DNA of 35,574 bases, taken from assembly GCA_031292555.1 (NCBI GenBank), contig JARLGV010000094.1:1-35574 (forward strand), in the 5' to 3' direction. The notes below the pieces were generated by a model that saw nothing but the letters and a program-made list of their open reading frames with translations, searched no databases and was not told the origin of the DNA. Shown here one piece after another: positions 20,248 through 27,915 of this stretch (positions within the stretch are counted from its first letter, which is position 1; each line of letters opens with the position of its first letter). Source of the stretch: Fimbriimonas sp. (lineage in GTDB: Bacteria; Armatimonadota; Fimbriimonadia; Fimbriimonadales; Fimbriimonadaceae). The position numbers and the translations under genes were made by a program.

Positions 20248-22650
20248 TCAGGAACGGGCGGTAGTGAACTTCATGCGAACGAGGTACCGGATCTGAATGA
20301 GGGTGAACCCAATGAGAATGCTGCCCATGACCCATGCCGCGGCCGTGGCGTAACCAAACTTCAGGTACATGAACGCGTTCTGCCAGACCTCCAGCCCGAT
20401 CGTGCGCGTCGCGTTGAGCGGTCCCCCTTGAGTAAGGACGAAGATGTTTTCCATCGCCTTGAACCCTCCGATAAACACTCCCAGGAGGTTGATCAGGATC
20501 AACGGCTTTAGGCCTGGCACGGTGATGTAAAGGATCTTCTGCAGCCAGTTCGCCCCATCGATGTCGGCTGCCTCGTAGCGCTCAGGGGAGATATTCTTCA
20601 GGGCAGCCAGGTACAGAATCGATCCCGCCCCCGCACCGGCCCAGATGCCAGGAAGTACGACCGCGAACATCGCAAGCGATGGGTCGCCCAGCCAGTCGTT
20701 CGCAATTGGAACCGGCTTCATCCCGACGATTTCAATGATGGGGTTGACGAGGTGCACGATCAGGGGGGCGAGAAGCGAGTTGAGCGTCCCTTCCGCGCCT
20801 TTGTCGTAGAATTGACGCCACACAAGCGACACGACTACTGAGGATGTCATTGCGGGAAGGTAGAAGACCGTCCGGAAGAACACCTTCCCGCGGGGCACCT
20901 CGTTCAGAGCGATTGCTAGCATGATGGGCAGGAAGAAGCCGATCAGCAGGCTCAAAGCCACATAGAGAAAGCTGTTCAGAATGGAGCGGTAGAAGACCGG
21001 TCGCGTGAAAACGTCTATGAAGTTATCGAGACCGACCCACTTGGCTTGCCCGATAATCCGGTAATCCTGAAACGCGATAACTAAGCCGCGGCCGAGAGGA
21101 TAGTACGCCCAGAGGACGATGCTGGCGGTTGCCGGAAGGAGACAGAGCCCGATGAAGAGCCACATTCGCCTCCTGCTGATACCCGCGGGAAGGTTCTCTG
21201 GGGTCCCTTCTTTATTCCGCTTTGCCTGCTTCAGCGCGACGGTCGTTACCGAACCCACGATAAGCAGAAAGCTGGCCAAGATTCCAAGCGCCCATGCCCG
21301 CTGTCTCGCCAGAAGCTCGGGGGGACGGTAAGCAAGCAGCTTCTGGTCCATCTCCCGTTGGCCCGCCTTGAGGATATTTATCGCCGGCACGTTCGGCTCC
21401 AACCGAGCCGTGTCGAGTATGTCGTCGAGGGCGAGGTACACCATCTGGCAGTTCTTGCCATACGGTTCGGGATGGCCGGTTCGAAACACCGACTCGTTCG
21501 CGGCAACGTATTCCGGGTCAACCTGATCCAGGAGGTCGGTAAATCCGAACTTCTTGAGCCAGATCGGGTTAATCTGTCGGCCAAGTCCCAACTCTACGGA
21601 CTTACGGGTATTAACTCGAGCCGCTTCGTCGCCGGCGAAGAACTTGATGAATCGCCAGCAGGCCTCAAGACGCTTGGGGTCTTTCACGCGGGAACTGATC
21701 GCCCACATACCCGCGTTCACCTCGTTCATCTGGCCTGCGGGACCCGCCGGAGTGGCCGCAATGCCGATGACGGAAGGAGGAAGCTCGGTTGAAGCAAGGA
21801 GCACATCGTTCGTGTACGAGAGCCACATCGCGGTCCTACCCTTGTTGACGTCGTCGGTCAAGTCCGACGAGATCTCCGCAACGGGCGGAATCGCCTTGCC
21901 GTCCGGTCCCGCTTGCGGAAGTACGAGCTTGCGAAAAAAGTCGACTGCCTTCGCGTTCTCGGGCGACGCAACCACCGAATGCCAGTTTCCCGCCGCATCA
22001 GGTTTGACGATCTCCCCACCGGCCTGATAGGCGAAATTCTGCCAATGGTATCCGGGAGGCGTCGAGAAAGCAAATCCGTACCTATTCCGCTTGCTGAGCT
22101 TCCGGGCGTACCGATAGAACTCGTCCCATGTTCGCGGCGGCTTGTTTGGGTCGAGGCCAGCCTCAATGAAGAAGTCTTTCCGGTAGTACAGGGCAATCGC
22201 GACCTGAAAGAACGGTATGGCGTATGTCTTGCCGTCGTAGCTGGTCAGCACGTGACGTACGGCAGGGTTGATCCGCGACAGGACTGCCGGGTCCTGAGCG
22301 ATGAGGTCGTCGAGCGGACGACAGAATCCTTGATCGAGGAACGTGTAATACTGCCGGAAGTTCACGTAGAAGACGTCCGGAGACATGTCACCGGCCATCG
22401 ACATGAGGAAGAGATCGTCACCCTGCGTTCCGTTCAGTTGGAGGCCGCCTGCGTTGACCACCTGAATGCCCGGGTTCTGCCTCTCGAACGCCTCGAACAC
22501 CGCCCGTTGAACGACTGCCATCGTGGTGGTCGCCTCTTTCGGAGGAATGCCGAAACCCACTCCCGCCATCATGCGGATAGTGATCGGCGTGTCTGCCCAC
22601 AGGCGTGCAGCTACGACCAAAAGGAACAGAATCGTAAGTAACCGCCGCAT
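20248..22650 (-). CDS. Fused ABC sugar-binding protein and MalF-type permease
   Basis: A single 800-residue frame joins two components that are normally separate. Residues 1-20 form a signal peptide (RRLLTILFLLVVAARLWA). Residues about 25-430 are a family 1 extracellular solute-binding protein: MSPDVFYVNFRQYYTFLDQG, LTSYDGKTYAIPFFQVAIAL, PPRTWDEFYRYARKLSKRN, GRTAMWLSYTNDVLL. A membrane segment lies at about 449-472 (WALGILASFLLIVGSV), then a basic linker. Residues about 493-800 are a MalF/UgpA-type permease with six hydrophobic segments and an EAA loop at about 690 (EAADIDGANWLQKI with the conserved Gly). The ATG at 22650 follows GAGG by 7 nt; the frame extends to 22719 without conservation. 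Neither a MalG-type partner nor an ATPase lies next to it. Divergent from recA. Confidence 0.92.
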   Translation of the reverse strand: MRRLLTILFLLVVAARLWADTPITIRMMAGVGFGIPPKEATTTMAVVQRAVFEAFERQNPGIQVVNAGGLQLNGTQGDDLFLMSMAGDMSPDVFYVNFRQYYTFLDQGFCRPLDDLIAQDPAVLSRINPAVRHVLTSYDGKTYAIPFFQVAIALYYRKDFFIEAGLDPNKPPRTWDEFYRYARKLSKRNRYGFAFSTPPGYHWQNFAYQAGGEIVKPDAAGNWHSVVASPENAKAVDFFRKLVLPQAGPDGKAIPPVAEISSDLTDDVNKGRTAMWLSYTNDVLLASTELPPSVIGIAATPAGPAGQMNEVNAGMWAISSRVKDPKRLEACWRFIKFFAGDEAARVNTRKSVELGLGRQINPIWLKKFGFTDLLDQVDPEYVAANESVFRTGHPEPYGKNCQMVYLALDDILDTARLEPNVPAINILKAGQREMDQKLLAYRPPELLARQRAWALGILASFLLIVGSVTTVALKQAKRNKEGTPENLPAGISRRRMWLFIGLCLLPATASIVLWAYYPLGRGLVIAFQDYRIIGQAKWVGLDNFIDVFTRPVFYRSILNSFLYVALSLLIGFFLPIMLAIALNEVPRGKVFFRTVFYLPAMTSSVVVSLVWRQFYDKGAEGTLNSLLAPLIVHLVNPIIEIVGMKPVPIANDWLGDPSLAMFAVVLPGIWAGAGAGSILYLAALKNISPERYEAADIDGANWLQKILYITVPGLKPLILINLLGVFIGGFKAMENIFVLTQGGPLNATRTIGLEVWQNAFMYLKFGYATAAAWVMGSILIGFTLIQIRYLVRMKFTTARS

Positions 22651-22699
22651 GTGGAGCCTCGGTCCTTGATACCTTATTGTCCGCAGGATTACATTCCGG

Positions 22700-22730
22700 T
22701 GGACAAACCCCTCTACCATTTTAGTAGAAT
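22700..22730 (+). promoter_or_regulatory. Candidate recA promoter
   Basis: TGGACA at 22700-22705 (5 of 6 to TTGACA) and TAGAAT at 22725-22730 (5 of 6 to TATAAT) are separated by 19 bp. The long spacer is unusual. A second -10-like TATAAA lies at 22740-22745. Either choice places the palindrome at 22722-22741 over the polymerase contact. Confidence 0.4.
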
Positions 22731-26796: not shown

Positions 26797-27915
26797 GTGA
26801 ACAGAGTTTGGATAGGATTGTTAGCATCAATCATAAGCGGTTCGGCGATGGCGCAGAGTTCGGTACTGTATCAGCCGGCCAAGACAGTTAAAGACCAGTC
26901 GATGACGATCAAGTCCTGGGGAAGCGGGACAGTTTCGGAAACCGACGAAACGGCGTACGAAGGCACGCACTCGATCCGCGTCTCGACCAAGAACTACTTC
27001 CAGGGCGGAATCTTGGAGATAGGCAATCCGGTGGATCTATCCAAGGAGTTCCTCTCCAAGACGAATCTCCTTCGCTTGACGTTCAAGCTTGCCGATAGCG
27101 GAGTCGTTCGCGGCGGCGGCGGCATCGGCGGTGGCAAGGGCGGCTTCCCCGGCATCGGGGGTGGTCCCGGCGGCGCTCCCGGCGGACTTCGCGGTGGCGG
27201 ACTCGGTGGCCCCGGAGCCGGCGTAGGTGGCCCAGGCGGCTTGCCAGGCGGCTTTGGCGGTCAACGCGGCGGTGGTCAGCGAGGCGGCATCGGCGGGCCA
27301 GGTGGCCTACCAGGTGGAATTGGCGGCCAGCGCGGCGGGCCCGGCGTGGGTGGACCTGGCGGTATGGGTCTTGGCGGCCCAGGTGGAACGGGGGCGACGG
27401 CTCCCGTACTGAAGCAACTGCGCCTGATTGTTACTACGTCAGACGGTAAGCGAAGCGAAGTCTATGTGCCTGCCAACACGAGTTCGGCTTCCGACCAGGG
27501 ATGGACGACGGTTGCGATTCCGCTTCAGGCAATTTCCGGATTCGACCGAACGAACAAGGCAGTTAGCGCAGTGGCCATCTCCGGAAATACGACGGCTACC
27601 CTTTACGTCGGCGACATTCGGGTCGTCGACGACTCCACACCGATCACCGGCGACACGAACGTGTCCAGCGGCGAGCTGAACGCAGCCCTTGGAGACGAGT
27701 ACACGTTGACCGGCTACGGATCCGGCGGTTCCAGCATCCTGCGCTACACGTGGGACTTCGACGACAGGGACGGCATCCAGGTCGACGCAGAAGGCCAGTC
27801 GGTCAACCGGAAATTCCGCAAGCCCGGAACCTACGTGATCACATTGACGATCTCCGACTACTACGGACTAAAGCAGCCCTATTCTAAGACGATCAAGGTC
27901 GTCGTAAACCCTTAG
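26797..27915 (+). CDS. Secreted protein: beta-sandwich split by a Gly-rich insert, plus PKD domain
   Basis: The 372-residue product has a signal peptide (RVWIGLLASIISGSAMAQ). Residues about 25-100 (TMTIKSWGSG and SIRVSTKNYFQGGILEIGN type strands) and about 205-285 (LKQLRLIVTTSDGKRSEVYV, GWTTVAIPLQAISGF, TATLYVGDIRVVDD) together look like one galactose-binding/CBM-like jelly roll. Residues about 101-199 between them are more than half Gly with Pro, Gln and Arg. The C-terminus is a PKD domain with YTWDFDDRDG and a GTYVITLTISD strand. GTG start at 26797 follows GGAGG by 6 nt. Likely a cell-surface or matrix protein; ligand unknown. It ends the recA-led run. Confidence 0.82.
   Translation: MNRVWIGLLASIISGSAMAQSSVLYQPAKTVKDQSMTIKSWGSGTVSETDETAYEGTHSIRVSTKNYFQGGILEIGNPVDLSKEFLSKTNLLRLTFKLADSGVVRGGGGIGGGKGGFPGIGGGPGGAPGGLRGGGLGGPGAGVGGPGGLPGGFGGQRGGGQRGGIGGPGGLPGGIGGQRGGPGVGGPGGMGLGGPGGTGATAPVLKQLRLIVTTSDGKRSEVYVPANTSSASDQGWTTVAIPLQAISGFDRTNKAVSAVAISGNTTATLYVGDIRVVDDSTPITGDTNVSSGELNAALGDEYTLTGYGSGGSSILRYTWDFDDRDGIQVDAEGQSVNRKFRKPGTYVITLTISDYYGLKQPYSKTIKVVVNP
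27097..27393 (+). repeat. Gly-rich coding repeat
   Basis: The stretch encodes about 99 residues dominated by GGxGG and GGPGG units. A 16-residue unit of the form GGPGGLPGGxGGQRGG occurs twice, at 27226-27273 and 27292-27339 (66-bp offset). The two copies differ at many synonymous positions, which points to selection on the protein rather than recent DNA duplication. Confidence 0.85.

Follow-up and report, generated by a model that had tools for sequence, protein, structure and literature searches.

A binding protein and a permease in one reading frame

The window, i.e. the whole stretch of 35,574 nucleotides analysed here, carries among its housekeeping genes, between recA and priA (both named from their translations), a gene that encodes a sugar-binding protein fused to a MalF-type permease. 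The whole open reading frame lies on the minus strand at 20248..22719 and encodes 823 aa from the first ATG; Met24 (22650) is, however, the more probable start, given the many orthologues that begin around that column, so that the gene would occupy 20248..22650 (800 codons plus stop, 800 aa). An earlier, sequence-only reading had reported an uninterrupted 800-codon frame at 20248-22650, and the frame is indeed open with exactly these coordinates; the strand, which that reading had left unstated, is the minus strand, the plus-strand frame being broken by stops.

All parts of the chain are given below in minus-strand coordinates. A predicted signal peptide (approximately residues 24-42; 22594..22650), apparent from hydropathy and from a helix at residues 21-41 of the AlphaFold2 model, is followed by a complete family 1 sugar-binding protein (residues 43-465; 21325..22593), within which the Pfam family SBP_bac_1 matches residues 67-367 with an E value of 2e-34. 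The two domains are joined by an extra membrane helix (residues 467-498; 21226..21321), delimited by hydropathy at 474-498 and by a model helix at 467-502, and by a basic linker (residues 499-517; 21169..21225) with 7 K/R as against 2 D/E in the segment 496-518, which, by the positive-inside rule, is expected to face the cytoplasm. The MalF-type permease domain (residues 518-823; 20251..21168) is recognized by BPD_transp_1 at residues 594-806 (E 6e-9, above the cut-off) and by the UgpA, GlcT and MalF models, and also matches the AlgM1, SugA and MalF chains. It contains the EAA loop, the contact for the ATPase (residues 715-735; 20515..20577), with the motif YEAADIDGA starting at residue 715; E716, A718, D721, G722 and A723 are invariant in the 27 aligned sequences. 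Thus, the signal peptide, family 1 binding domain, membrane helix, basic linker and EAA-loop permease named in the earlier reading are all seen by Pfam and hydropathy, and the binding protein and the permease form one chain, encoded in one frame in the window as well as in the orthologues. Elsewhere, the window encodes (26797-27915, plus strand) what may be a secreted protein, in which a long stretch of repeats is rich in Gly and Pro.

A lone MalG as the probable partner

The fusion was said to need a MalG-type permease and an ATPase, neither of them nearby, and the window does not provide them: the only BPD_transp_1 match on the contig is the fusion gene itself, so that a second permease is missing, as is a MalK-type ATPase, the sole ABC_tran match (30382) not being an OB_MalK protein. 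The claim that partners are missing from the neighbourhood therefore holds for the window but not for the genome, in which a lone MalG and a single MalK are encoded on other contigs. The lone MalG is found on contig C19 (L028:6185-7735, minus strand; 516 aa; BPD_transp_1, E 3e-13), where it is flanked by a sigma-factor gene and an MFS gene, and is of the same kind as the 748-aa, large-insert MalG encoded beside the nearest paralogue of the fusion on contig C26.

An intact orthologue of the fusion, 53-79% identical and in one open frame, is present in 37 of the 61 related genomes, the window's own included; a 38th genome, the MAG G054 (73% complete), has only a contig-edge fragment of it. The C19-type MalG is present in exactly the same 37 genomes and in neither G054 nor the 23 remaining ones; among the genomes without an intact fusion, G020 keeps a diverged adjacent pair. 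On the ValS tree, the fusion and MalG each change 8 times, and all seven independent pairs on well-supported branches agree between the two genes (7/7, p 0.016); furthermore, the distances of the two genes are correlated over and above those of ValS (partial r 0.38, Mantel p 0.0005). In a wider set of genomes, MalG was found with the fusion undetected in three incomplete MAGs (G132, G134 and G135; 68, 88 and 92% complete), and G151 has a fragment of the fusion at a contig end. A homologous MalG adjoins the fusion in nine other Armatimonadota families, in six of which the fusion is closer to the window's protein and in three to the C26 paralogue, and is likewise next to it in Lentisphaerae and Planctomycetota; as in the window's family, the two genes are encoded apart in f10, f11 and part of f12. 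Taken together, the co-occurrence, the changes on the tree, the correlation of distances and the adjacency elsewhere make the C19 MalG the probable partner of the fusion.

The fusion is not a one-off in its own genome, which contains ten further SBP-MalF fusions (L009, L010, L011, L012, L013, L015, L016, L017, L018 and L019), each with a MalG-type gene adjoining. Other MalG subunits are, accordingly, at hand, and the fusion could be envisaged as a promiscuous MalF half that has no MalG dedicated to it and pairs with those of the paralogous importers. We regard this as unlikely, given the strict co-occurrence with one lone MalG, the presence of homologues of precisely this MalG beside the fusion in other genomes, and the fact that genomes without the fusion-MalG pair still hold other MalF and MalG genes. 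The C19 MalG hence remains the probable partner.

The paralogous fusions with their MalG genes look like an expanded set of tethered sugar importers, and several of its members have peculiarities of their own. The MalG partners at L009:7840-9585, L010:7543-9204 and L011:7590-9251 (553-581 aa in all) are extended at the N-terminus by a long additional part in which several stretches are hydrophobic; no Pfam match to this part was obtained in the one protein tested. In the periplasmic part of the MalG partner at L012:6203-7951 (minus strand), units resembling SANSGPAPRPSEGDVGEERTGRGG are repeated, seemingly through an expansion of low complexity. In addition, L020:7000-8508, as judged by eye, encodes a one-chain fusion of a betaine/choline-type binding protein with a permease, with an ATPase gene adjoining.

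The tether and its conservation

In the AlphaFold2 model of the fusion (mean pLDDT 75; the permease part is less sure, with pLDDT 40-80), residues 43-465 match whole solved sugar-binding proteins with Z 30-35. The last helix of this fold ends near residue 460, and 467 is the first residue of the membrane helix. The long C-terminal stretch that had been ascribed to the binding protein is, judging by the model, the normal end of the binding-protein fold, which runs to residue 465, and the tether between fold and membrane helix is predicted to be very short. The earlier reading was right to place a tethered binding domain on the periplasmic face, the periplasmic location itself being what we infer; the high local concentration and the lost exchange between transporters that it envisaged would follow logically from such a fusion. 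If the chain were cut after export, the binding domain would be freed and would work as an ordinary free binding protein. For such a cut the analysis gave no indication, and it appears highly unlikely, since in the model the membrane helix (from 467) follows the binding domain (to 465) at once and since the one-frame architecture is kept over the phylum, which suggests that the linkage matters.

A search for the two-domain order elsewhere, as the earlier reading had proposed, shows that it recurs across Armatimonadota, with a match to the fusion at E <= 1e-70 in 139 of the 291 genomes of the phylum and no case of a split into two genes among the matches listed for these genomes. Full-length homologues outside the phylum were found in three Lentisphaerae, one member of the Planctomycetota and one record labelled Actinomycetota (the set of 396 genomes is centred on Armatimonadota and samples other phyla thinly, with at least one matching genome of another phylum among the matches listed). 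On plasmids, the best matches examined are not fusions: in rhizobia, the binding protein and the permease homologous to the two parts are encoded there by two genes side by side, in one example 12 bases apart. The notion that the orthologues might always be encoded as separate proteins is contradicted already by the intact one-frame orthologues of the related genomes. Since one-frame orthologues are spread across Armatimonadota, the fusion is, as far as genome comparison goes, a conserved lineage trait and not an error, an assembly artefact or a product of chance.

At many orthologous loci recA again adjoins the fusion, and in most Fimbriimonadaceae examined the fusion is encoded alone beside recA. 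This solitary position would suit a protein without transport activity or independent of MalG, such as a sensor or a homodimer; such a function is, however, scarcely credible, as the EAA loop is intact and MalG is either adjacent or co-occurring. A missed stop codon between two genes, as the separate, closely spaced rhizobial neighbours might suggest, has a negligible chance and is already refuted by the one-frame orthologues in many independent assemblies, including the single-contig genomes G008, G026, G145 and G169, and by the added helix and linker between the domains. What stands is a permease subunit that carries its own binding domain and, probably, is paired with MalG.

A candidate shared ATPase

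The single OB_MalK ATPase of the window's genome is encoded on the 7.3-kb contig C111 (L126:2720-3868, minus strand), with an unrelated gene alongside and without a permease gene beside it; a search by TOBE_2 yielded no second MalK-like ATPase in this genome. One OB_MalK protein is thus set against dozens of binding-protein-dependent permease genes, and 15 of the 16 relatives tested also have exactly one, G017 having two. The C111 MalK is close to the MalK proteins of known structures and to MsmX, and, when aligned by eye with 6yir, has D, R, D and K at the positions of MsmX D77, R104, E110 and K154, the residues noted for multitask ATPases, among which E110 is replaced by D in MsmK (PMC7658222). 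Because it is the only OB_MalK protein in the genome, the C111 MalK would drive the fusion importer and would be the motor common to this importer and others.

The periplasmic insert of MalG

In the C19 MalG, hydropathy places approximately 260 residues between the first two membrane helices, and homologues have even more. In several homologues, Pfam GH42 recognizes the insert with scores above the cut-off and in as many as four stretches; the best of these cover roughly positions 145-215 of the 376 positions of the profile; such GH42-fragment repeats between the first two helices are found in the MalG proteins at L056:10758-12842, L201:3787-5664 (minus strand), L210:7713-9650 and L202:6923-8914. 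A model built for the repeat detects several copies in the MalG insert. In the MalG of the window's own genome (L028:6185-7735, minus strand) the repeats have diverged, with E 0.08 for Pfam GH42 and 5e-8 and 1e-4 for the repeat model. The structure model of MalG (four sequences) has a mean pLDDT of 43, too poor for judging the interface, and is usable in the repeat region only, approximately residues 250-380 of the Planctomycetota protein; one repeat in this part aligns with the stretch of GH42 enzymes that the Pfam matches cover, with Z up to 7.8, a value that is weak when taken alone. It appears, from these matches, that a piece of a galactosidase barrel, with the rest missing, was turned into a periplasmic repeat domain. 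One may speculate that both halves of the importer have a periplasmic module, namely the binding protein tethered to MalF and the tandem GH42-derived repeats of MalG, of about 60 residues each, the latter serving this binding protein as a non-enzymatic dock or sugar guide, but we consider this doubtful. In two Lentisphaerae MalG proteins (L055:10502-13015 and L054:3783-5792) an additional hydrophobic segment is seen within the permease domain; it is absent from L052 and L056.

The proposed importer

The sequence searches yielded the parts of a CUT1 system, namely a family 1 binding protein, an EAA-loop MalF permease, a lone MalG and an OB_MalK ATPase. The fusion is, in our opinion, likely to serve a CUT1-type (type I) ABC importer as its SBP-MalF subunit, alongside a separate MalG and a shared ATPase. 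In such an importer, the binding domain would reside in the periplasm, and the added helix would carry the chain across to the cytoplasmic side, which would leave the permease in its normal topology. The fusion would pair with the lone C19 MalG and two copies of the shared MalK. There would be exactly one binding domain per transporter, kept next to the pore that it serves, and no recourse to a pool of free binding proteins. The cycle could then proceed as in MalFGK2: the tethered domain would bind the sugar and close, the closed domain would dock on MalF/MalG, and the binding of ATP would open the docked domain, with the sugar being moved inward. The substrate is probably an oligosaccharide; apart from transporter genes, the gene neighbourhoods contain no widely recurring neighbour that would give a clue to it.

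Comparison with known systems

The open-access literature searched yielded no account of this fusion architecture, and the genome paper on F. ginsengisoli counts ABC transporters and, in the passages found, leaves fusions unmentioned (PMC4072686). By homology, the proposed importer resembles MalEFGK2, AlgQ2-AlgM1M2SS and UgpBAEC (CUT1) in the family of its binding protein, its EAA-loop MalF, its MalG partner and its MalK ATPase. It stands apart from CUT1 importers of the MalFGK2 type with MalF and the binding protein in one covalent chain, with its three parts encoded at three places in the genome, and with a large periplasmic insert in MalG. With MsmX and MsmK it would share the use of one MalK-type ATPase apparently for several sugar importers (PMC7658222), albeit multitasking is established experimentally in Firmicutes, whereas for the C111 MalK we infer it. 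Unlike the GH42 beta-galactosidases, whose profile segment its repeats match, the MalG insert has no more of the barrel than a fragment, which is repeated in tandem within a loop of a membrane protein.

The best-known cases of fused binding domains, among them OpuA and GlnPQ, are importers built on a pair of identical membrane subunits and therefore have two or more binding domains per transporter. As in the fusion, the binding domain of these importers is covalently tied to the membrane domain; in OpuA, too, the linker is short and a membrane anchor is used (PMC11065425). OpuA and GlnPQ are, however, not MalFG-type sugar importers, and the fusion is not assigned to their families; the separate MalG, which co-occurs with the fusion and is adjacent to it in relatives, points to a heterodimer, and a MalF/MalG pair would carry a single binding domain. 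A MalF/MalG importer with one covalent binding domain would make the effect of tethering testable at a single site per transporter, and subunits that are scattered, yet kept or lost together, are a clear case of what operon-based annotation misses. In comparison with the known systems, we rate as new the combination, in a CUT1-type importer, of a fused binding domain with scattered subunits.
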